64,000 bases of DNA from assembly GCF_031195445.1 (NCBI RefSeq), contig NZ_CP133480.1:1908001-1972000 (forward strand). Reading direction: 5' to 3'. Source of the DNA: Acuticoccus sp. MNP-M23. GTDB lineage: Bacteria; Pseudomonadota; Alphaproteobacteria; Rhizobiales; Amorphaceae. Below the pieces are notes generated by a model. The model was given only the letters and a program-made list of their open reading frames with translations, was not told where the DNA came from and made no database searches. The position numbers and the translations under genes are program-made. This document shows, one piece after another, positions 14,163 to 29,182 of this stretch (its first letter is position 1; each line of letters starts with the position of its first letter).

Positions 14163-14802
14163 TAAGAGACCGTTTGAGAAAGGAATTCCGTTTGGCGCGG
14201 GTTCGTGATTCACACGACGCACGTGGACCAAACGAATGCGAGGCCGGATGGCGGCCATCGAACGCAAGACAAATCGATATCCGGGCGGCCTGACGGATGC
14301 GGAGCGGGAGCGGATCGAACCGGCGCTCCCAAAGCCGGGTCGCAGGGGGCGCAAGCCCGCGACTGACCTGCGGGAGGTGCTCAACGCGATCCGTTACATG
14401 GCGCGCTCGGGCGGCGGCTGGCGCATGCTGCCCAAGGATTTTCCGCCGTGGCAGACGGTCTATTGGTGGTTCCGCCGCTTCGTCCGGCCGATGCTGTTCC
14501 GCACGATCCACGACGTCGCGCTGATGATCGATCGCGAGCAATCCAATCGCGAAGCAAGTCCTAGTGCCGGCGTCCTCGACAGCCAGAGCGTGAAAGCGCC
14601 CGCAGCGGGAGCCGCCCGCGGTTTCGATGGCGCCAAGAAGATCATCGGCCGCAAGCGCCACATTGTCGTCGACACCGATGGCCGCCTCGTCCGCGATTTC
14701 GAGCAACGCATCGACGTCTCCGAGGCCATGATCCACGTCGCAATGGGTGGCCTGCTCCTCCGACGCATCAGCCACTGATCGCAATTCTCAAACAGAGTCT
14801 AA
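14163..14802 (+). mobile_element. IS5-family element, internal deletion derivative with TAA target duplication
   Basis: The inverted ends are GAGACCGTTTGAGAA (14166-14180) and its counterpart TTCTCAAACAGAGTC (14785-14799), 12 of 15 matching when reverse-complemented. They are bounded by TAA on each side (14163-14165 and 14800-14802), a 3-base target duplication as expected for the IS427-type branch of IS5. The body is only 634 bases because the transposase has lost its middle. The right end supplies the last codons and the stop of the neighbouring hydrolase gene. Confidence 0.82.
14236..14778 (+). pseudogene. IS5-family transposase with in-frame internal deletion
   Basis: The N-terminal half (GLTDAERERIEPALPKPGRR, NAIRYMARSGGGWRMLPKDF, VLDSQSVKAP, GFDGAKKIIGRKRHIVVDTD) joins directly to the C-terminal tail VRDFEQRIDVSEAMIHVAMG. 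In full-length relatives about 75 residues lie between DTDGRL and the RRLVRDFEQR motif, including two of the DDE acidic residues. The join falls at a repeated RL(V/L), consistent with recombination between short repeats. The frame is preserved, giving a 180-residue protein that keeps one catalytic aspartate (DSQS) but cannot transpose. Confidence 0.82.
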
Positions 14803-16147: not shown

Positions 16148-16728
16148 ATGCTCGTGGGCTACGCCTGCGTCTCAACCCAGGATCAGAAGCCCGCGCTTCA
16201 GCTCGATGCGCTGAAGCCTGCCGGATGCGAGAAGGTCTTTCGCGAAAAGTCGTCCGGCGCGCAGCGCGACCGACCGCAGCTTGCGGCTACAATCGACTAC
16301 ATGCGCCCGGGCGACACCCTCGTCGTTTGGAAACTCGACCGCCTGGCTCGGTCGATGAAGCAGCTGATTGAGACCGTCGAAGGGCTTGAGGCCGAGGGAT
16401 CGGCTTCCGCTCTCTCACCGAGGCGATCGATACGACCACCTCGGGCGGCAAGCTCGTCTTCCATATTTTCGGCGCCCTGGCCGAGTTCGAGCGCTCCATC
16501 ATTCGAGAGCGCACGCGCGCCGGGCTGGATGCCGCCTAGGCAAGGGGCCGCACCGGCGGGCGGCCGAAGAGGCTGACGGATGCGGATCTCAAAGCGGCGA
16601 AGGCCATGCTTGCCGAAGACAGCTTCACAGTGGACGAGGTTGCAAAGCGCCTCAACGTTTCGCCGGCGACGTTCTACCGTTACTTGCCCGCGCCCCGAGC
16701 AACTATCACACGGAAGGAGCCAACATGA
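16148..16728 (+). pseudogene. Tn3-type resolvase/invertase, frameshifted and with active-site R to C
   Basis: The first part reads MLVGYACVSTQDQKPALQLD, KPAGCEKVFREKSSGAQRDR and MRPGDTLVVWKLDRLARSMK, a small serine resolvase. Near 16400 the frame shifts into GFRSLTEAIDTTTSGGKLVF, HIFGALAEFERSIIRERTRA. A TAG at about 16538-16540 precedes ARGRTGGRPKRLTDADLKAA and the helix-turn-helix VDEVAKRLNVSPATFYRYLP. The residue equal to R8 is cysteine (YACVS instead of YARVS), one transition away from arginine. Its stop overlaps the ATG of the WGR gene. It cannot be functional as written. Confidence 0.85.
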
Positions 16729-17203: not shown

Positions 17204-17920
17204 ATGAAGAAGCAGTCCGCCTCGGTCGAGCGAGTTGCGGAGGTCCTGCGCGACCGGATCGTCAAGGGCGCACTTCCCGCCGGTGCGCGCCTCAAGGAAC
17301 GCGCGTTGTCGCTGGAGCTTTCGGTGTCGCGCACGCCCATCCGCGAGGCGCTGAAACTCCTGCAGTCGGACGGGCTCGTGGAGATTTCGCTGAACAAGGG
17401 GGCGCAGGTCGTTGGCTATGGTGCGCGCGAGGCGGTCGACCTGTTCGAGCTGATCGCCGTCCTGGAGGCGCTTGCGGCCGAGCGGATTGCGGCGCGCATG
17501 GACACCGCGACGCTTGCCCGCCTGGAAACCCTGCACGGGCGCATGCTGCGCCGATACGAGGCGGGCGACGCCATCGCCTACTTCGACATCAACACCGAGA
17601 TCCACGACACGATCGTTGCGGCCTCCAGCAACCCGGAGCTGATCGACAGCCACAAGCGGGTGGTGGCGCGGGCGCGGCGGGGACGCTTCCTTGCCATAAT
17701 GGACGCGGAGCGGTGGGCCGAAGCGGTTGGCGAGCACGAGGCGGTGATGCGCGCCTTCCGCCGCCGCGACTCCGAGGCGGCGGCGCGGGTATGGCGCATG
17801 CACCTCGACAACACCGGCGCGACGGTCTCGACCGCGCTCGATGGCGTTGCATCCGGCGTGGCATTGAAGCCCGAACCCCCGGCCGTCGAGGCCGAACCGG
17901 CGCCGCTCGCGAAGCTTTGA
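17204..17920 (+). CDS. GntR family regulator (FCD domain), local regulator of the catabolic locus
   Basis: A 238-residue FadR-subfamily protein. The winged helix (about 8-70) reads VAEVLRDRIVKGALPAGARL and SVSRTPIREALKLLQSDGLV. The FCD ligand domain follows with FDINTEIHDTIVAASSNPEL and a later EAVGEHEAVMRAF, giving the aspartate and histidines that usually bind a metal and a carboxylate ligand. The C-terminal 30 residues are Ala/Pro-rich and probably disordered. A perfect palindrome lies just downstream before the racemase-like gene and recurs upstream of the ABC operon and near the hydrolase-amidase pair, so this protein is the best candidate regulator for all three units. Confidence 0.88.
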   Translation: MKKQSASVERVAEVLRDRIVKGALPAGARLKERALSLELSVSRTPIREALKLLQSDGLVEISLNKGAQVVGYGAREAVDLFELIAVLEALAAERIAARMDTATLARLETLHGRMLRRYEAGDAIAYFDINTEIHDTIVAASSNPELIDSHKRVVARARRGRFLAIMDAERWAEAVGEHEAVMRAFRRRDSEAAARVWRMHLDNTGATVSTALDGVASGVALKPEPPAVEAEPAPLAKL

Positions 17921-17951: not shown

Positions 17952-17967
17952 AAATGGCATGCCATTT
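17952..17967. promoter_or_regulatory. GntR operator candidate AAATGGCATGCCATTT
   Basis: A perfect 16-base palindrome 80 bases upstream of the racemase-like ATG. Its 12-base core ATGGCATGCCAT is repeated exactly at 23362-23373 and partly at 23581-23593, always upstream of genes of the same locus. Size and symmetry fit a FadR/VanR-type GntR dimer site. Confidence 0.7.
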
Positions 17968-18046: not shown

Positions 18047-18799
18047 ATGCGCATTCTGCTTGTGAACCCCAACACCACCGCCGCAATGACCGAGGGAATG
18101 ATGTGCGTCGCGCGCACCGTCGCGCCCCTAGGGGCCGACGTGGTGCCGCTCACCGCCGAGCGTGGCTTTCCCTACATTGCCACCCGAGCGGAAGCGCAGA
18201 TCGCCGGTGCAATCGCGCTCGAGATGATTGCGGCCCACGCAGGCAGCGCCGACGCGGCAATTATCGCCGCATTCGGTGACCCCGGCCTGCCTGCCGCCCG
18301 CGAGATCTTCGATTTTCCGGTGGTGGGTATGGCGCAGGCGGCCCTGGTGAGTGCGGCAATGCTCGGCGACCGCATCGCGATCGCCACTTTCTCGCCTGCG
18401 CTGCGGCGTTGGTACGAGGATGCGGCGCGCAACGCCGGGCTTGGCGACCGCTTCGTGGGTGTATCCGCTCCGGCGTCCCACGCTGCCCCGCCGCCCGCCG
18501 GGGCGCCCGCGACGCGTCAGCTGCTGGCGGGGCTTTGCCACCGCGCGGTGGATGAGCTCAGGGCCGATGTTGTCGTCCTCGGCGGCGCGCCGCTTGCCGG
18601 CCTTGCCGCCGAGCTGCAGCCGGAGGTGGGCGCGCTTCTCGTCGACCCCGTCGGCGCGGCTATCGCGCAGGCGGTGGCGCTGGTGTCGATGACACCGCGC
18701 GCGGGCTTTGCGCGGCGATCCGGCCGGCCGCTGCCCAAGCCGACCAACGGCCTTTCCCCGTCGCTCGCCCGCCTGTTCGCGCAGGAGGCGGCGGAGTAG
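18047..18799 (+). CDS. Asp/Glu/hydantoin racemase family protein lacking both catalytic cysteines
   Basis: A 250-residue protein with the family opening MRILLVNPNTTAAMTEGM and the conserved AFGDPGLPAAREIFDFPVVG and GDRIAIATFSPALRRWYEDA. Hydantoin racemase uses two cysteines, in (A)CFGDPG and LGCAG. Here these read IIAAFGDPG and VVLGGAPLAGLA, so the cysteines are alanine and glycine. The fold is intact, with no frame break, which suggests a changed role (for example ligand binding or a non-racemase reaction) rather than decay. The start at ATG 18047 is preferred because homologues begin at MRILLVNPNT. It lies downstream of the GntR gene with the palindromic operator between. Confidence 0.85.
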   Translation: MRILLVNPNTTAAMTEGMMCVARTVAPLGADVVPLTAERGFPYIATRAEAQIAGAIALEMIAAHAGSADAAIIAAFGDPGLPAAREIFDFPVVGMAQAALVSAAMLGDRIAIATFSPALRRWYEDAARNAGLGDRFVGVSAPASHAAPPPAGAPATRQLLAGLCHRAVDELRADVVVLGGAPLAGLAAELQPEVGALLVDPVGAAIAQAVALVSMTPRAGFARRSGRPLPKPTNGLSPSLARLFAQEAAE

Positions 18800-18872: not shown

Positions 18873-20414
18873 TCAGACCCGGCTGCTCTGGCGGTAGAAC
18901 GGCTCGTGACGGGCCGGGTCGATGTAGTCCGCGTAGAACTTGCGCACGTGTGGCAGCAGCGCCTTGGAGAGGTTGCGCCGTTCCACCTCGTTGTCGGAGA
19001 GGGCGCGGGACATGTCGTCGTGCAGCGCCTTCATCGCGTCGGCGCGATCGACACGGGTGAAGCGGCCGTCCTCGTAGAGGATCTCGCCGGCGCACATGGT
19101 CCGCCGCACGCCCGCCACCTTGGCGCGCTGCATCACGGCGTCCAGCACAGGGGTCAGCGGGTCGAGATAGGGGTAGCTGACGCTTTCCCAGTCGACCATC
19201 ACGAGGTCCGCCTCGCGCCCCACTTCGAGACGCCCAATCCGGTCGCCAAAGTTCGTCGTCTTCGCGCCGCCCTCGGTCGCCATCCGCAACACCTGCGGGA
19301 AGGTCGGCACGTCGGCGTCTACCATGCCGGGGACACGGTGGGCGCGGGCCACAAGCCGCATCTCGTTTAGCATGTCGCGGTCGTCGTTGAGGCCGGCCTC
19401 GTCGAGCCCGATACCGGTGTTTATCCCGCGCGCCTCGAGCGCGTTCAGCGGCGCGATGCCTGAGCGCAGGCGGAAGTTGGACGAGCAGTTGTGGCACACG
19501 CACGTGCCCGAGGCGGCCAGCTTGTCCATATCGCTCTCGTTCAGCCACACGCCGTGGCCGAGCGTCAGGCGCGGGCCGAGAAGGCCGAACTTCTCGATAT
19601 AGTCCACCGCCGTCCCGCCGCCGCGCCGGAACGCGTACTCCTTCTGGTAGGCGGTCTCGAGGAGGTGCATGTGGAGCGGCGCGTCGTAGCTCTCGGACGC
19701 TTCCGCCAGAGCCTCCAGCGCGGGATCCGAGCACCAGTGGAGGTTGGCGGGCGCAAGCTGGATGCGGGCGCGCGGCTTGGCGTTGTGTTTGGCGTGAAGG
19801 TCGCGAAACAGCGCCATCTGATCGTCGAGCCCGGCCTTGAAGGCGCCGAAGACACGTTTCATCGGGTCCCTGAGCTCGGGCGGGAGGCTGGCGACCAGCT
19901 CGTCGTCGGCCTGGTAGACGAGGCGGTTCTGGTCGCGCACGGCGTAGCAGTACGAGACGCGCATGCCGATGTCGTCATAGGCACGCAGCACGTCTTCGGA
20001 GCGCGCGCGCACCTCGTCCAGCGTTCCGGGCAGCCAGCCGTGGATGTGCTGGACCGTGGTGATCCCGGACTCGATCATCTCGAACGCGGAGTAGAGCGTG
20101 TCGAGATAAAGGTCGACGGCGCGCGTTACGAGGCGGGTGATGAACCACAATTCGAGCGGCATGTCGGGCGAGCCGAGCTGCACCGGCGTCAGCCCCACAT
20201 GGTGGTGGCTGTTGACGAAGCCGGGCAGGATCACGTCTCCCCCGCTGCCGATCACGGCGGCGCCCTTGTGACGTGCGGACAGGTCGGCGTAGGTGCCGAG
20301 GTCGGTGATCACGCCGTCTTCGACGACGACGGCGCCGTCCTCGATCTGTTCGGCGTTGAAGCGATCCGTGACGCCGGTGAAGAGCGTACGGCCGCGAACG
20401 ATCTTGGCGGTCAT
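18873..20414 (-). CDS. Amidohydrolase (TrzA/AtzA/SsnA-like metal-dependent deaminase or hydrolase)
   Basis: A 513-residue amidohydrolase-superfamily protein. The sequence LPGFVNSHHHVGLTPVQLG gives the first HxH metal motif (around residues 70-72), HMHLLET and LGHGVWLNESD the next histidines, and TGIGLDEAGLNDD the final metal aspartate. This layout fits the TrzA/AtzA/SsnA clade that deaminates or dechlorinates N-heterocycles, rather than urease-type binuclear enzymes. The ATG at 20414 is followed by MTAKIVRGRTLFTGVTDRFN; the much longer upstream frame is antisense shadow of the ABC gene. It is the last gene of the importer operon (40 bases after the ATPase), so it likely acts on the imported compound. 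C-terminal ~40 residues extend past the barrel. Confidence 0.88.
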   Translation of the reverse strand: MTAKIVRGRTLFTGVTDRFNAEQIEDGAVVVEDGVITDLGTYADLSARHKGAAVIGSGGDVILPGFVNSHHHVGLTPVQLGSPDMPLELWFITRLVTRAVDLYLDTLYSAFEMIESGITTVQHIHGWLPGTLDEVRARSEDVLRAYDDIGMRVSYCYAVRDQNRLVYQADDELVASLPPELRDPMKRVFGAFKAGLDDQMALFRDLHAKHNAKPRARIQLAPANLHWCSDPALEALAEASESYDAPLHMHLLETAYQKEYAFRRGGGTAVDYIEKFGLLGPRLTLGHGVWLNESDMDKLAASGTCVCHNCSSNFRLRSGIAPLNALEARGINTGIGLDEAGLNDDRDMLNEMRLVARAHRVPGMVDADVPTFPQVLRMATEGGAKTTNFGDRIGRLEVGREADLVMVDWESVSYPYLDPLTPVLDAVMQRAKVAGVRRTMCAGEILYEDGRFTRVDRADAMKALHDDMSRALSDNEVERRNLSKALLPHVRKFYADYIDPARHEPFYRQSSRV

Positions 20415-20454: not shown

Positions 20455-21267
20455 TCACGCGAGGGCCTCCTGTTCGGCGAACGCGCGGTCCACCTCGTCG
20501 GCCAGAAGGGTTTCCAGATGGCGGCGGAGCTCGGTCGCTTCGGGCGAGAACGGGTCGCGCGGGCGGGGCAGCGGATTGTCCACGATGGTCTTGATCCGCC
20601 CCGGCCGTGCGGTGAACACGACGACGCGGTCCGACAGCGCCACCGCCTCGTCGATGCCGTGGGTGACGAACAGCACCGACGCCCCGCTGTCGCGCCACAC
20701 ATTTTGCAGGAAGTCCTGCATCTTGCGCCGCGTCTGAACGTCGAGCGCGGCGAACGGCTCGTCCATCAGCAGCACCTTGGGCCGCATCGCGAGCGCTCTG
20801 GCGACGGCGACGCGCTGGCGCATCCCGCCCGACAGTTCGTCGGGCCGCTTGTCGATTGCGGCACTGAGGCCGACCTCGCGCAGCGCCTCGGCCGCGCCCT
20901 CGCGCCGCTCCGCCTTGGAGGCGCCGCGGATCGAGAGGCCGAAGGCGACGTTGTCGCGCACCGTCAGCCAGGGAAACAGCGACGTCTCCTGGAAGATCAG
21001 GCTGCGCTCGGACGACGGGCCCGTGACCGGCTCGCCGAAATAGTTGATGACGCCCTCGGTCGGGGCCTCCAGCCCGGCCATGAGGTAGAGCAGCGTGCTC
21101 TTGCCGCAGCCGGAGGGGCCGAGCAGCACCACGAACTCGCCGGCTTTAACGTCGAGGTCGATGCCCTCGAGCGCCTGGTGCGCCCGAGGGGTGCCGGCCG
21201 CCCAGGTCTTGCCGACGCCGCGGCACACGAGGGCGGTCCGGCGCGAGAACGGGGCATCAGAAGCCAT
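20455..21267 (-). CDS. ABC transporter ATP-binding protein, NitT/TauT type
   Basis: A 270-residue ATPase. Walker A is GPSGCGKST, the Q-loop is FQETSLFPWLTVRDNVAF, the signature is LSGGMRQRVAVARALAMRPK, Walker B is VLLMDEPFAALD and the H-loop is FVTHGIDEAVAL. The EPFAALDVQTRRKMQDFL and RPGRIKTIVD segments are typical of nitrate/sulfonate/taurine-type importers. Its start overlaps the permease stop by 11 bases. It energises uptake through the adjacent permease. Confidence 0.93.
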   Translation of the reverse strand: MASDAPFSRRTALVCRGVGKTWAAGTPRAHQALEGIDLDVKAGEFVVLLGPSGCGKSTLLYLMAGLEAPTEGVINYFGEPVTGPSSERSLIFQETSLFPWLTVRDNVAFGLSIRGASKAERREGAAEALREVGLSAAIDKRPDELSGGMRQRVAVARALAMRPKVLLMDEPFAALDVQTRRKMQDFLQNVWRDSGASVLFVTHGIDEAVALSDRVVVFTARPGRIKTIVDNPLPRPRDPFSPEATELRRHLETLLADEVDRAFAEQEALA

Positions 21268-22189
21268 GGGCGGCCCCCTTGTTGGGGATCCAGTAGAGGA
21301 CGCGGCGCTGCAGGGTGCGGAGTGACCAGTCGGTGAGGAAGCCGAACACGCCGATCAGCGCGATGGTGCAGAACACCAGCGGCGGATTGAACGTGTTGCG
21401 CGCCAGCATGATGATCTGGCCAAGGCCGTAGCCGACGCCGGTGGTCTCGGCGATCAGCACCACCATCCACGCCCCGAAGAGGTTGAGGCGCAGCACCATC
21501 AGCATGGGGGGCAGGATCGCGGGCACGATCACGCGGGCGTAGACCTGCCGCTTGGTCGCCCCCATCGTCCGGGCGACATGGATGAAGTTCTTCGGCACAT
21601 TGTCGATATGCGCGACAGTGGCGATCACCATGTGGAAGAACAGCGCGATCACCACCATGAAGATCGCCGGTCCGTTGCCGATGCCGAACAGGAATACCGC
21701 GACCGGCAGCCACGCGACGGGCGACACGGCGGACAGGAGCATGACCGTCGGCATCGTCAGCTTCTCGAACAGGGCGAAGTACCGCATCAGGATGCCGGCG
21801 GTGATCGCGAGGAAAGACGCGATGGCGAGCCCCGCGATCACCCGCGCGCTGGTTGCGGCGACCGTGATCATCACCGCCTCCGTGCCGGAGGGGGCTTCGG
21901 ACTGGGAGACGCCGACCTCCCAGCGGGTTGCGGTGTTGAAGAACTTTGCCTGGTTGGGCAGGTCGCCGAGGAAGATGTGCGGCGGCGGCAGCAGGCGGGG
22001 GTCCGCCAAGCCGACGAGCCAGCAGAACTCCCACACCAGGCAGAAGATGCCGACCGACGCGGCGCCCCACGCAAGGCTCGACAGCGTGCCGCCGAGCCGC
22101 AGGGACGCCAGGGGCCCGGCGCGCCCCAGCGCCGTCACCCTCTTCGGCAGGCTCACGCCCGGCCTGACGTCGGACGCGGTGTCCCTCAC
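21257..22189 (-). CDS. ABC transporter permease, NitT/TauT type
   Basis: A 310-residue inner-membrane protein with about six helices. The EAA loop coupling helix is visible as ARTMGATKRQVYARVIVPAI followed by LPPMLMVLRLNLFGAWMVVL. The N-terminal segment MRDTASDVRPGVSLPKRVTA is cytosolic. Its ATG overlaps the substrate-binding-protein stop (ATGA), so the operon is tightly coupled. Works as a homodimer with the ATPase encoded next. Confidence 0.92.
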   Translation of the reverse strand: MRDTASDVRPGVSLPKRVTALGRAGPLASLRLGGTLSSLAWGAASVGIFCLVWEFCWLVGLADPRLLPPPHIFLGDLPNQAKFFNTATRWEVGVSQSEAPSGTEAVMITVAATSARVIAGLAIASFLAITAGILMRYFALFEKLTMPTVMLLSAVSPVAWLPVAVFLFGIGNGPAIFMVVIALFFHMVIATVAHIDNVPKNFIHVARTMGATKRQVYARVIVPAILPPMLMVLRLNLFGAWMVVLIAETTGVGYGLGQIIMLARNTFNPPLVFCTIALIGVFGFLTDWSLRTLQRRVLYWIPNKGAAHGF

Positions 22190-23247
22190 GCCGCCGACTT
22201 CCGCTTCAGCGATGCGTAGAGGTCGGGGTTCTCGGCGATCACCTCTTCGAGGAGGCTCCAGTCGATCGCCTCGCGGCCGGGCTTTTCCTTGATGTAGCCC
22301 ATCTCCGCGACACTGGCGACGCGCTCGAGGATGAACTCGGTCTGGTCGCGTGCGTCGACCACGGCGGGCTGCTTGGACATTGCGGCCTGGGCGGCGTCCA
22401 TCGACGTCTTGTAGTAGGTGCCGACGACCTTATCGAGAACCTCCTGCGGGTTGCTTTCGGCCATCGCCTGGGCCTCCATCATCCCCTTGATGAGGGCCTT
22501 GAGGGCCTCGGGATTGTTCTCGATCACGTCGGTGCTGGCGGCGAGAACGCAGTCGGTGTAGCCGGGGCCGTAGAGGTCGATCCCGTCGGTCAGCAGCGTT
22601 GCGCCGGGGACGTCGGCCAGGGCGGCGGACGCGTAGGGCTCGATGGTGGCGTACATGTCGAGGGCGCCGGCGCGGAACATCTCGACGCCTTCGGCCTGCC
22701 CGCCGACGTAGCGCACGGTGATGTTCGCGAACGAGACACCGCGCTTCTTCAGGTAGTCGTACGGGAGGACCTCGAGGGTATCCATCTGCTGCGTGCCGAG
22801 GACCTTGCCCTTCATGGATTCGGGGCTGTCGATGCCCGGCTGGGCGACCACGGCGCAGCCTTCGATGCCCCCACCGGCGACGATCCTGATCGGTGCCCCG
22901 GCGTCGTACAGCGCGAGGAACGAGGTGTACGGCGTGAGGCCGACGTCGACCTGGCCGGTGCCGAGGAACGTCACCTGGTCGGCAAAGGTCGGCGTGTTGA
23001 CGAACTGGAGGTTCAGGCCGTCATCGGCGGCGAGCTGTTCGGCATGGGCGAGGAAGAGGTTGAGGTTGCAGAACCCGCCGCCGTGGGTGGATTTCAAGGT
23101 GGTGTCGGCGGCGTGGGCGGCGCGGCAGAACCCGCCGCCGACGCCGATTGCCAGCGTCAACCCGCCGGCGTTGCGCAGGAGGCTGCGCCGGCTGAGGCCG
23201 GAAGCCCGCGCCGGAGCGTTACGGTCGATGCCTTGGTGGTCGCACAT
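22186..23247 (-). CDS. ABC transporter substrate-binding protein, NitT/TauT (NMT1/THI5-like), Tat-exported
   Basis: A 353-residue periplasmic protein. The start at ATG 23247 is preferred because AGAGGGG lies about 10 bases upstream; the in-frame ATG at 23271 lies before that site. The signal carries twin arginines (SGLSRRSLLRNAGGLTLAIG), predicting Tat export. The mature part has FVNTPTFADQVTFLGTGQVD, VGLTPYTSFLALYDAGAPIR and VRYVGGQAEGVEMFRAGALD, typical of the SsuA/TauA/NMT1 fold. Ligand is not predictable; context (amidohydrolase, amidase, hydantoin-racemase fold) points to an N-containing ring or amide. A GntR-type palindrome lies 115 bases upstream. Confidence 0.9.
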   Translation of the reverse strand: MCDHQGIDRNAPARASGLSRRSLLRNAGGLTLAIGVGGGFCRAAHAADTTLKSTHGGGFCNLNLFLAHAEQLAADDGLNLQFVNTPTFADQVTFLGTGQVDVGLTPYTSFLALYDAGAPIRIVAGGGIEGCAVVAQPGIDSPESMKGKVLGTQQMDTLEVLPYDYLKKRGVSFANITVRYVGGQAEGVEMFRAGALDMYATIEPYASAALADVPGATLLTDGIDLYGPGYTDCVLAASTDVIENNPEALKALIKGMMEAQAMAESNPQEVLDKVVGTYYKTSMDAAQAAMSKQPAVVDARDQTEFILERVASVAEMGYIKEKPGREAIDWSLLEEVIAENPDLYASLKRKSAA

Positions 23248-23361
23248 GATGTCGTCCCCTCTTGGAATCATGGAGCCGCCGCTCTTGCGAGGCTCGAGGT
23301 CGCAGCGAACTGCCTGATGCGAAGTTGCGGAATATCTTCAGGCAAGCACCGTGCCAACACG

Positions 23362-23373
23362 ATGGCATGCCAT
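23362..23373. promoter_or_regulatory. GntR operator candidate, second copy
   Basis: ATGGCATGCCAT, a perfect 12-base palindrome identical to the core at 17954-17965, lies in the 400-base divergent region between the ABC operon and the hydrolase-amidase pair, about 115 bases upstream of the substrate-binding-protein start. It is suitably placed to control the leftward operon. Confidence 0.7.
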
Positions 23374-23580
23374 TTTAGAGCCTTCTGCCGGAGAGGCCGA
23401 TGCGCGGTCGCCGAAGATGCAGGCGACATGCGCAATCATGCGCCATCGTAATCTGTCGCTGGCTTCGTACCTTGCATGTTGGCAAGATGCCTTGAGAGCG
23501 TCGGCCCCGTCCGCCGGGCGGAAGAAGCAGGCGTTGCCGGGTGCCTCTTCATCGCTTACATTGCCGGTGTATTGGAAAAT

Positions 23581-23603
23581 TTGCATGCCATTTTCGATGG
23601 CAA
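23581..23603. promoter_or_regulatory. Degenerate third operator and adjoining dyad
   Basis: TTGCATGCCATTT keeps the right half and centre of the palindrome, and is followed by CGATGGCAA, giving also a dyad GCCAT-N5-ATGGC. It lies 50-70 bases upstream of the proposed hydrolase start on the plus strand. The rest of 23248-23650 holds no recognisable gene. Confidence 0.5.
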
Positions 23604-23650
23604 TTCAGCATTCGTCCAAGGGGGCCGCTCTTGAGCACGTCAACGTCCGC

Positions 23651-24766
23651 ATGCCCTACGCCACGCATTTGCGCGATGCCCGCAACGGGGCCGCGCGCAT
23701 GAGCCGTTCCGCAGCCTCGGCCGGGGAGCGGATCCAGGCGGCGGCACTGGCGCGGCCGTGCCGGTGGCCGGCCGACATCAGAGCCGTGATTGAGGGCGAG
23801 ACCTTCGATCCGCCGCCCTTCAACGTCGTCATCGGCCCTGTCTTTCCGCGCGGCGAACCGGCGGGAACGGTGGTCGCCGGCGGTGATGTCCTCGCAACGT
23901 GGGGCGATGGTGCGCGGGCCGACATGGCATTCAGCGTCGCCAAGAGCTACGTCGGCCTGCTCGCGGCCGCAGCGCTCGACCGCGGTCTCCTGTCAGACTT
24001 CGCGGAGCCGGTGGCGGCGCGGATCGACGACCCCGCCTTCGCCTCGCCCCGCAACAGGACCGTGACGTGGCGCCAGCTGCTCGACCAGACGAGCGAGTGG
24101 GAAGGCACGTTGTTCGGCCTGCCGGACACGGTCGACCGCGACCGCCAGCTTGCACCGACAGACGACCCGGCGAGGTTTGACCGCGCCACCCCCCTCGGGC
24201 CGCCGGGCACCTACTGGGACTACAACGACATCCGCGTGAACGCCCTGTGCCTTGCCCTCACGCGCCTCTACGGCTGCCCGCTTGGTGAGGCGCTGGCCTC
24301 CTTCCACCCGGCGTTCGGCGCCGCTACCGGTTTCCGCTGGCACGGCTACGGCGCCCGCTCGACGATCGATCTGGGCGGGCGGGCGGCCGAGGTTGCGGTT
24401 GGTGGCGGGCACTGGGGCGGCGGGGTGGTGGCGGGGGTGCCGCACCATCTCGCGCTGGGCGGCATCGTGCTTGGGCGGGGCGTTCTTGCCGGGCAGCGCG
24501 CCCTCTCCGCCGAAGCGCTCGATGTGCTCCTGACGCCCTGTCCGCTGCAGCCTGTCTATGGCGGGTTGTGGTGGTTGAACGGGGCGCAGAAGCTGTTTCG
24601 CGAGGCGCCGGCCGAAAGCGTGTTTGCCATGGGCATTGGCAGCACCGTGGTCTGGGTCGCGCCCTCGCTGGGTGTGGTCGCTGTCATCCGCTGGGTAGAG
24701 GCGGAGGGGGTGGCGAACGTGCTCGCCGCTATCGTGTCCGCACTCACGGGGCGCAAGGAGATCTGA
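23651..24766 (+). CDS. Beta-lactamase-fold serine hydrolase
   Basis: The protein of about 370 residues belongs to the class C beta-lactamase/esterase family. The SxxK motif is visible in DMAFSVAKSYVGLLAAAALD, a YxN-like motif in GTYWDYNDIRVNALCLAL, and a late loop YGGLWWLNGAQKLFREAPAE followed by VFAMGIGSTVVWVAPSLGVV, equivalent to the region around the third motif. There is no signal peptide in the likely product, so it is probably cytosolic. The start is uncertain: ATG at 23597, 23651 and 23699 are in frame and none has a strong ribosome binding site; similarity begins after 23699. It is one base from the amidase gene, forming a two-gene unit. It might open a lactam or cleave an amide/ester in the same pathway. 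Confidence 0.82.
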   Translation: MPYATHLRDARNGAARMSRSAASAGERIQAAALARPCRWPADIRAVIEGETFDPPPFNVVIGPVFPRGEPAGTVVAGGDVLATWGDGARADMAFSVAKSYVGLLAAAALDRGLLSDFAEPVAARIDDPAFASPRNRTVTWRQLLDQTSEWEGTLFGLPDTVDRDRQLAPTDDPARFDRATPLGPPGTYWDYNDIRVNALCLALTRLYGCPLGEALASFHPAFGAATGFRWHGYGARSTIDLGGRAAEVAVGGGHWGGGVVAGVPHHLALGGIVLGRGVLAGQRALSAEALDVLLTPCPLQPVYGGLWWLNGAQKLFREAPAESVFAMGIGSTVVWVAPSLGVVAVIRWVEAEGVANVLAAIVSALTGRKEI

Positions 24767-24767
24767 A

Positions 24768-26141
24768 ATGCCGCTTGCGCCCGATGTCCGCTGGGACTGC
24801 CGTACCCTGGTCACCGCGATCCACGAGGGCCGAACCGATCCGGGTGCCGGCGTCGCTCGTGCGCTGGACGCTATCGCGGCGCACAACGGGGTCTTGAACG
24901 CGGTCGTGGACCACGATCCGGAGCTGGCAGAGCCGCAGCTGGATAGGCTTCGCGCGCGCCTTGCCAGAGGCGAGCGGCCGCCGCTCTCCGGGCTGCCGGT
25001 CACCGTGAAGGACCATATCCACGTCGCAGGCTGGAAGGCGACTGGCGGCTCGCTGCTGTTGGCGGACAACCGACCCGAGCGTGATGACCCGGCCGTCGCC
25101 CGCTTGCGCGACGCGGGCGCGATCCTGATCGGCCGCACCAACATGTCCGAGTTCGGCTGCAAGGGGGTCACGAGCAACCGGATCTACGGCGCGACCGGGC
25201 ATCCGGCCGACCCGCTTCTCACCCCCGGTGGCTCCTCCGGTGGCGCCGCTGCGGCCGTTGCGGCGGGCATGTGCGCGTTCGCGCTCGCGAGCGATGGCGG
25301 CGGGTCGATCCGCCGGCCCGCCGCCCACGTCGGCGTTATCGGCTTCAAGCCCTCCGCGGGCGCCATTCCCGGCGGACACATCCTGTCCCACACCAATGTG
25401 CTCGGCGTCCTGGCCGCCGAGGTCGACACCGCGATGCTGGTCTTCGCGGCGTTGCGCGGCGCCGACCGGGCCGACCCGGTGAGCGTCAATTTTCCAGCCG
25501 ACCGCCGTTCGCTGGAGGGGACGCGGATCGGCTGGGCGCCGACGTTGGGGCTCGACGTGCGCCTCGACGAGGCGGTGGCGGCGGCGGCCGAGCGGGCGCG
25601 AGCCCGCCTTTCGGCCGCCGGCGTGGCGCTGGAGCCGGCGGCGCCCGAGTGGCCGAGCGGCGCCGACGAACCGGCACTGATGCCGCTGCAACACGCCGCT
25701 CTTGCGACCCGATGGGGCGAGGCATGGCGGACCGACCCGACGGTTTTCGATACCGACATAGCGTCCCAGATTGAAGCGGGGCTGCGGCTGGACGGCACCG
25801 CCGTGGCACGGGCCGATGCGATGAGCCGCGAGATTGCTCGCGCCGCCGCAACCTTCTTCGCGACCGGTCCAGACCTCTTAGTATCCCTTACGACGCCGTG
25901 CCCGGCGTGGCCGCATGCGCTCTTGGCACCACCGACGATCGGCGGTTTGCCCGCTGGCCCACGCGACCACGCTGCACTGACCCCGTTGGTGAACCATGCC
26001 TTCCTACCGGCCGTCAGCATCCCTTGCGGCGAGACGGAGCGCGGTCTGCCGCTGGGCTTGCAGATCATCGGGCCGCGCTTCGCGGACGACTTCGTCCTGC
26101 GTGCCGCAGCGACGTTCCTGCCGCTCCTCGGCGCCTCGTGA
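24768..26141 (+). CDS. Amidase signature family hydrolase
   Basis: A 457-residue amidase-signature enzyme. The Ser-cisSer-Lys triad is visible: VTVKDHI (K81), GGSSGGA (154-160) and the nucleophile in SDGGGSIRRPA (S180). The pattern IGRTNMSEFGCKG and the C-terminal ISIPCGETERGLPLGLQIIG -like segment (AVSIPCGETERGLPLGLQII) are typical of the GatA/AtzE branch. Length is usual. It follows the beta-lactamase-fold gene with a one-base gap and is probably co-translated. Likely final amide hydrolysis in the pathway; substrate unknown. Confidence 0.92.
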   Translation: MPLAPDVRWDCRTLVTAIHEGRTDPGAGVARALDAIAAHNGVLNAVVDHDPELAEPQLDRLRARLARGERPPLSGLPVTVKDHIHVAGWKATGGSLLLADNRPERDDPAVARLRDAGAILIGRTNMSEFGCKGVTSNRIYGATGHPADPLLTPGGSSGGAAAAVAAGMCAFALASDGGGSIRRPAAHVGVIGFKPSAGAIPGGHILSHTNVLGVLAAEVDTAMLVFAALRGADRADPVSVNFPADRRSLEGTRIGWAPTLGLDVRLDEAVAAAAERARARLSAAGVALEPAAPEWPSGADEPALMPLQHAALATRWGEAWRTDPTVFDTDIASQIEAGLRLDGTAVARADAMSREIARAAATFFATGPDLLVSLTTPCPAWPHALLAPPTIGGLPAGPRDHAALTPLVNHAFLPAVSIPCGETERGLPLGLQIIGPRFADDFVLRAAATFLPLLGAS

Positions 26142-28043: not shown

Positions 28044-29180
28044 ACTGGACTCCGTCAGAAGGAGACGGAGATGAAGAAGAGCCGCTTCAGCGAAGAGCAG
28101 ATCATCGCGGTCCTGAAGGAGCATGCCGCGGGGATCGGTGTGTCGGAGCTGTGCCGCAAGCACGGGATCAGCGACGCGACGTTCTACACGTGGCGCAAGC
28201 GCTACGGCGGAATGGAAGTGTCTGAAGCCAGGCGGCTGAAGGCGCTGGAAGATGAGAACGGCCGCCTGAAGAAGCTTCTCGCCGAACAGATGCTCGATGT
28301 GGCGACGCTGCGGGACGCTCTGGGAAAAAACTTCTGACGCCCAGCGCACGGAGAGGCTTCGTGAGTTGGGCGATTGAAAAGAAGGGGTATTCCCAGCGGC
28401 GCGCCTGTGCCCTGATCGGGATGCATCCAAGGACTTACCGCTACCGGTCGCAGCGGCCGGACGATGCGACGGTGCGCCAACGCCTGAAAACGCTGGCGAA
28501 CGAACGGCGCCGGTTCGGCTATCGGCGGCTGCATATCCTTTTGCGGCGCGAGGGTATCGAGGTGAACCACAAGAAGCTGTTCCGCCTATACCGCGAGGAG
28601 AGGCTGAGTGTACGACGGCGCGGCGGCCGAAAACGTGCCATCGGAACGCGGGCGCCAATGACCTTGCCGCGAGGACCAAACCAGCGCTGGAGCCTCGACT
28701 TTGTCTCCGACCAGCTCAGCGACGGGCGCCGCTTCCGTGTGCTGGTGGTGCTCGACGACTTCACCCGCCAGTGCCTGACGCTCGTTGTCGACACATCACT
28801 GTCGGGGGCTCGCGTGGCACGGGAACTCGACCGCCTGATCGTCAGTCGCGGCAAGCCGCTCACGATCGTCAGCGACAACGGCACCGAGCTGACCTCCCAT
28901 GCCATCCTCGAATGGCAGGAGGACCGCCGCGTCAATTGGCACTACATCGCGCCCGGCAAGCCGATGCAGAACGGCTTCGTAGAGAGCCTGAACGGTCGCT
29001 TCCGCGATGAGTGCCTCAACGAGCATCTCTTCCGCAGCCTTCCGGGCGCTCGCCGCATCATTGAGGAATGGCGCACCGACTACAACCACGACAGGCCGCA
29101 CACCAGCCTGGGCGGCCTCACCCCGAACGAGTTTGCAACCCGGTCCCGATGGGACCACAACACGAACAGAGTCCAGCTAT
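28041..29180 (+). mobile_element. IS3-family insertion sequence, apparently complete
   Basis: The ends read TGAACTGGACTCCGT at 28041 and, reverse-complemented, ATAGCTGGACTCTGT at 29180, sharing the core CTGGACTC(C/T)GT. Two overlapping-phase orfs encode OrfA and OrfB. No convincing target duplication flanks it, which suggests that rearrangement followed insertion. Both orfs are intact, making this the only mobile element in the window that could still be active. Confidence 0.85.
28071..28337 (+). CDS. IS3-family transposase OrfA
   Basis: 88 residues: helix-turn-helix [40 protein letters not shown], then a leucine-zipper segment [20 protein letters not shown]. It binds the IS ends and dimerises. 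A run GGGAAAAAAC at about 28322-28331, just before its TGA, is a good -1 slippery site for producing the OrfAB fusion transposase. GGAGACGGAG precedes the ATG. Confidence 0.92.
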
Positions 29181-29182
29181 GA
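28361..29182 (+). CDS. IS3-family transposase OrfB (DDE integrase domain)
   Basis: 273 residues with the HTH_21 region [20 protein letters not shown] and [20 protein letters not shown], followed by the rve integrase core. Catalytic D, D, E are visible in [19 protein letters not shown] and [21 protein letters not shown]-terminal [19 protein letters not shown] is typical of the IS407-like group. The frame is -1 relative to OrfA, consistent with programmed frameshifting at the A-run. Its final codons enter the inverted end. Confidence 0.93.

Follow-up and report, generated by a model that had tools for sequence, protein, structure and literature searches.

The known chemistry of the PF01177 superfamily depends on one or two catalytic cysteines. 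Closest to the protein described here are the allantoin and hydantoin racemases of the HYD branch (KpAllR/HpxA, 3QVJ; PfAllR, 5LG5; PF01177). The same branch contains the peptide/diketopiperazine epimerases OpaE and NozR, which diverged through remodelling of the pocket and both of which need an intact cysteine dyad: the C199S and C90S/C199S variants of OpaE show at most 0.3% activity (PMC12661438), and the C75A, C179A and double mutants of NozR are inactive (PMC10156859). AMDase (PF17645), from the same superfamily, offers a precedent for the loss of one cysteine accompanied by a change of reaction; it keeps the proton donor Cys188 and a T75/S76/Y126 dioxyanion hole (motif definitions in PMC4996985). 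Published descriptions of cysteine-free racemase homologues, or of the gene cassette presented below, were not found in the open-access literature, to which our search was confined; their absence there is weak evidence. We report here on such a homologue encoded in a window of 64,000 nucleotides (the whole stretch of DNA analysed) from Acuticoccus sp. MNP-M23 [Table 1].

Table 1. Features of the cysteine-free racemase-homologue locus (window coordinates)
Feature	Position	Strand	Basis
GntR/FCD-family regulator, directly upstream of the cysteine-free gene	17204..17920	+	profile match
Palindrome AATGGCATGCCATT, candidate operator in the regulator-gene interval	17953..17966	.	motif search
Cysteine-free HYD-branch (hydantoin/allantoin-racemase) protein, 250 aa	18047..18799	+	PF01177 profile, alignment, tree, fold
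Ala75 codon (KpAllR Cys79 position)	18269..18271	+	alignment to 3qvj
Gly180 codon (KpAllR Cys184 position)	18584..18586	+	alignment to 3qvj
Amidohydrolase, cytosine deaminase/atrazine chlorohydrolase/8-oxoguanine deaminase group	18873..20414	-	profile match
ABC transporter ATPase (nitrate/taurine type)	20455..21267	-	profile match
ABC transporter permease	21257..22189	-	profile match
NMT1/SsuA-type substrate-binding protein	22186..23271	-	profile match
Second palindrome copy GATGGCATGCCATT, divergent intergenic region, upstream of transporter operon (-) and hydrolase genes (+)	23361..23374	.	
Beta-lactamase-family serine hydrolase (PF00144); start uncertain, probably more downstream	23495..24766	+	profile match
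Amidase-signature hydrolase (PF01425, 287 bits)	24768..26141	+	profile match

A hydantoin-racemase relative and its two lost cysteine positions

The reading frame runs from the ATG at 18047 to the stop codon at 18797-18799, and its translated product matches PF01177 end to end (143 bits, cut-off 31; profile positions 1-211 of 211), while none of the NCBIfam models names it. Upon alignment with the Klebsiella allantoin racemase (3qvj), the first catalytic motif of KpAllR, ACFGDPG, reads AAFGDPG in the Acuticoccus protein and the second, LGCGGMA, reads LGGAPLA, leaving at the two catalytic positions an alanine (Ala75) and a glycine (Gly180) that are each invariant across the clade to which the protein belongs. 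The only cysteines of the protein, Cys20 and Cys164, show no conservation within this clade, and neither catalytic cysteine has therefore merely shifted position, which rules out a relocated catalytic cysteine. Nor does the sequence place an obvious general acid or base at positions 75 or 180. Membership of the AMDase family was likewise rejected on motifs: Ala75 and Gly180 stand in place of AMDase Gly74 and Cys188, and IIAAFGDPGL and VVLGGAPLAG in place of LMGTSLSF, ILLSCGGL and the dioxyanion hole. Judged from its residues, the protein is a member of the PF01177 superfamily that lacks the defining residues of both hydantoin/allantoin racemases and AMDase.

An AlphaFold model built on a 60-row alignment (pLDDT 95.1, pTM 0.92) and its Foldseek matches display the two-domain pseudosymmetric fold of PF01177. 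The best matches in the PDB are allantoin racemases (TM 0.82-0.89; top E 3.8e-17), ranked above a hydantoin racemase, OpaE and AMDase. The preliminary description of this locus, which had both family cysteines replaced (AFGDPG and LGGAPLAG) in an otherwise intact and conserved fold, is thus borne out by the alignment, its coordinates included, and by the profile match and the model.

The resemblance to KpAllR and PfAllR (TM ~0.84, ~30% identity) extends to the NPN motif and to the cradle residues Asn7, Asn9, Thr15, Asp78 and Thr/Ser114. Among the residues of KpAllR reported to bind substrate, Asn12, Thr118 and Thr119 (PMC12661438), the first two correspond to Asn9 and Thr114 (Ser in many members) and are kept or conservatively replaced, whereas the Thr119 position is taken by Phe115. 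Further departures from the racemases, beyond Ala75/Gly180 and placement in a separate clade, are the change of SIE to YI[AS]xR and of AG[MFL] to APL. Within the 67 aligned rows of the clade, Tyr43 (66/67), Arg47 (63/67), Trp122 (66/67) and Pro182 (67/67) are nearly or fully invariant; the racemases mostly have Ser at position 43, Gln, His or Tyr at 47, variable residues at 122 and Gly at 182.

Conservation of the Ala/Gly pair and a proposed order of cysteine loss

Relatives were collected from a scan of genome contigs (48 sequences) and, in addition, from searches of the family, class and phylum of the window. Ala75, Gly180 and Pro182 are each found in all 67 clade rows, which represent 66 distinct genes (the window gene was entered twice) and were chosen by the neighbouring motif letters AAFGDP and APL; one additional sequence assigned to the clade by the tree (L064) also carries the Ala/Gly pair. 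Constancy of this kind goes far beyond chance. Outside this motif-based selection, 19 plasmid records were found, and the eight examined (from Salipiger, Methylobacterium, Defluviimonas, Diaphorobacter, Cupriavidus, Paraburkholderia, Klebsiella and Arthrobacter) all have the pair, such that the motifs AAFGDPG and [AG]GAPL[AS]G are kept across alpha-, beta- and gammaproteobacteria and one member of the Actinomycetota. None of the clade members examined is a close relative with both cysteines. Among members 80-98.5% identical, the median dN/dS is 0.17 (range 0.02-0.38; 616 non-independent pairs), and the cysteine-free gene is under purifying selection.

These data bear on the simplest explanation for the missing cysteines, namely that a former hydantoin racemase is decaying in the genome of Acuticoccus sp. 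MNP-M23. Such decay would suit the transposase- and resolvase-like sequences bordering the cluster; yet 74 homologues, spread over two phyla and several classes, show no variation at the residues in question, the reading frame is intact, the dN/dS of the clade is about 0.17, and both cysteines are retained by no close homologue. Decay, which we consider extremely improbable, was rejected on the invariant residues and the dN/dS. The preliminary description had proposed to collect homologues from similar neighbourhoods and to take close relatives with both cysteines in the same context as a sign of decay here; the pair proved to be conserved and no such relative was encountered among the clade members examined. 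The bordering sequences themselves (14236-14778, 16148-16576 and 28044-29182) were recognized by eye from their translations and may delimit a mobile or acquired island.

In a tree of 154 sequences (quick IQ-TREE run, SH-aLRT support only), a branch with an SH-aLRT value of 100 separates 104 sequences devoid of the second cysteine from all 48 two-cysteine sequences, KpAllR included. The latter side of the branch also holds two rows aligned as Gly/Cys, one of which is the deposited PfAllR 5lfd chain. The 104 sequences have glycine (in one case alanine) at position 180; 22 of them keep the first cysteine (ACFG[DE]PG) and 82 have neither, and the AAFGDP/APL clade contains no two-cysteine or one-cysteine sequence in this tree. 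The simplest reading of this topology would be that the second cysteine was lost before the first, the root within the 104 being unfixed and several long branches uncertain. Both the one-cysteine group and the cysteine-free clade have gained Arg47 (21/21 and 63/67, respectively) and mostly Tyr43, and most members of both have lost the Glu45 of the racemases; Trp122, Pro182, Leu183 and Gly185 are additionally fixed in the cysteine-free clade.

The one-cysteine sister group (n=22; ACFG[DE]PG and GGA[GA]LAG), which includes L053, L054, L055, L067, L070-L074, L076, L083, L115, L117 and L118, belongs to the same superclade and shares Gly180 with the cysteine-free proteins. Unlike them, it retains the first cysteine, in a mirror image of AMDase, and has an invariant Trp119 instead of the clade's Trp122; Gly116 is also invariant. 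A second group without canonical cysteines (L008, L079, L084, L133, L142 and L136) has A[VM]S[YFM]D[TS] as its first motif (V for A in L084) and LCGAA or LTGAV as its second, two members carrying a cysteine one residue ahead of the usual second position. Additional racemase-family genes were seen close by at some loci: a two-cysteine gene near the one-cysteine gene in L055/L099, a divergent cysteine-free gene in L091 and, in L097, a gene that has the second cysteine but not the first.

Hydrolase neighbours and a candidate GntR operator

Orthologues of the GntR/FCD regulator (54-68% identical) lie upstream of the cysteine-free gene in L009-L012. The amidohydrolase of the window has orthologues in L013 and L017 (52-64% identical) and a close match in L173, and it is found again together with an NMT1-type transporter and the cysteine-free protein in Pseudotabrizicola (L013) and in L173, a genome of the window's order. 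Reyranella-type genomes usually present an ABC transporter, an amidohydrolase, the cysteine-free gene and a PuuE-like allantoinase (TIGR03212), in this order; given that the latter scores 333 bits, under the cut-off of 425, its substrate is perhaps a different one. At L027 (8731-9621) and many other Reyranella loci the PuuE-like gene starts approximately where the cysteine-free gene ends. In Thioclava, the cysteine-free gene is followed by a dihydropyrimidinase (735 against a cut-off of 647).

Hydantoinase, amidohydrolase, amidase, PuuE-like, HyuA/B or AMDase-like genes neighbour the cysteine-free gene at 20 of 25 non-redundant loci versus none of 20 stretches taken at random from similar genomes, a count whose reference proteins were drawn from such loci and which is biased toward finding them there; two of the five negative loci are short Reyranella-type stretches with hydrolase genes matching under the thresholds of the count. 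Such neighbours are fewer at one-cysteine loci (6/14). As an independent check, hydA (dihydropyrimidinase) was found within ~10 kb in all seven annotated plasmid loci, and an AMDase-like gene at seven of the eight plasmid loci. Company with hydantoinase and allantoinase-like genes is a further trait shared with the allantoin and hydantoin racemases. Transporters and hydrolases vary from locus to locus, such that several substrates or reactions are possible.

The cysteine-free protein is accompanied in L009 (5502-6290), L012 (10084-10917), L013 (8739-9482), L214 (11056-12003) and others by AMDase-like proteins that carry the motifs WNGTS and CTN. AMDase-like neighbours were aligned with the B. 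bronchiseptica AMDase sequence, which served as an alignment ruler only. Its key motifs match those published, and the roles of the residues compared are from the same source (PMC4996985). Gly74, Thr75, Tyr126 and Cys188 are retained in these neighbours, as is Ser76 in nearly all of them. Since the one protein scored (L009) falls far under the AMDase and EutA cut-offs, these neighbours may form an undescribed group of decarboxylases or isomerases.

A palindrome, ATGGCATGCCAT, is present upstream of both the cysteine-free gene and the transporter operon, the copy upstream of the latter differing from AATGGCATGCCATT by one mismatch. None of the shuffled controls reached three matches to the palindrome. 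Extended by its TTT flank (ATGGCATGCCATTT), it has only two sites in the 5.16 Mb genome, both in this cluster, and the reversed control has none in the same 5.16 Mb. In L009, L010 and L011, which also carry the regulator orthologue, exact copies precede the gene by ~85-130 bases. A weaker copy with two mismatches was noted at 23579-23592. The linked GntR regulator probably uses this palindrome as its operator, and we infer from the distribution of the palindrome that the cysteine-free gene, the transporter and the hydrolases would form one GntR regulon, in line with the GntR-linked pathway suggested in the preliminary description.

Candidate functions of the cysteine-free protein

We favour, with a probability of roughly 0.6, an enzyme with non-cysteine chemistry that acts in a GntR-controlled catabolic cassette on a cyclic ureide-, imide- or lactam-type nutrient and is not a two-base cysteine racemase. 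Because Asn7, Asn9, Thr15, Asp78 and Thr/Ser114 are kept, the racemase cradle would still accommodate a substrate resembling hydantoin (or a ring-opened one) and would stabilize an enolate- or imidate-like state. Proton shuttling by cysteine thiols would be impossible, and chemistry might proceed via water or via residues newly fixed in the clade, for example Tyr43 and Arg47, to bring about isomerization or tautomerization, decarboxylation or a lyase-type cleavage. With both catalytic positions devoid of cysteine, neither cysteine two-base racemization nor protonation of the AMDase Cys188 type can take place; the exclusion of these mechanisms in the preliminary description stands to this extent and does not reach chemistry through other residues. 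The trimethylallantoin (caffeine) pathway was rejected as a source of the substrate, as the review of that pathway reports no allantoin-racemase homologue in its cluster.

An alternative that we regard as unlikely, without dismissing it, is a pseudoenzyme: a binding protein, sensor or scaffold devoid of catalysis that holds an intermediate or partners, for instance, an AMDase-like protein or a hydantoinase. The retention of the binding residues despite the loss of both catalytic cysteines would agree with such a role, as would the AMDase-like protein co-encoded at 11 of the 25 loci and the four-base overlap of its gene with the cysteine-free gene in Methylobacterium nodulans. The AMDase-like gene is, however, absent from the 64-kb window and from many other loci and its product is therefore not an obligatory subunit, which leaves an obligatory complex of the two proteins unsupported. 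Nor is any DNA-binding or signalling domain fused to the protein, and the near-invariant Tyr43, Arg47, Trp122 and Pro182 are suggestive of a rebuilt active site rather than of mere loss, although invariant residues are to be expected of a ligand-binding protein too. More doubtful still is a racemase or epimerase for a substrate whose C-H is unusually acidic, in which other residues or water would replace the cysteines. The fold, the position of the clade and the hydantoinase neighbourhood do resemble those of hydantoin racemases, and cofactor-independent racemases with non-cysteine bases have been reviewed (PMC8142540); against this, loss of cysteines abolishes activity in the relatives OpaE and NozR, neither lost position is refilled by an acidic or basic residue, and the Acuticoccus genome itself encodes two two-cysteine relatives.

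Retention of the binding residues, combined with the fixation of new ones, makes a changed enzyme, with a cyclic ureide or imide (or its ring-opened form) as substrate, appear more likely than a dead one. Compared with a sensor or binding protein, a changed enzyme also agrees somewhat better with the clade-specific invariant residues and with the catabolic hydrolases that constantly accompany the gene. More tentatively, and at slightly less than even odds, the clade may represent a widespread class of cysteine-free enzymes descended from hydantoin racemases, in which the second catalytic cysteine disappeared before the first. Such enzymes would catalyse a reaction new to the superfamily in a hitherto undescribed pathway under GntR control whose substrates are cyclic ureides or imides, and their partners there would be a hydantoinase-type hydrolase and often a one-cysteine AMDase-like protein.

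The cysteine-free clade is an overlooked type of protein, probably with a different job. The plasmid gene tables label its members only as 'aspartate/glutamate racemase family protein', a name that invites wrong racemase assignments. In a superfamily whose known chemistry requires catalytic cysteines, a large cysteine-free clade maintained by purifying selection in catabolic operons signifies either a novel chemistry that this fold performs without cysteine or a pseudoenzyme that has been conserved, and the recurring cassette points to an uncharacterized pathway and offers a concrete experimental system.
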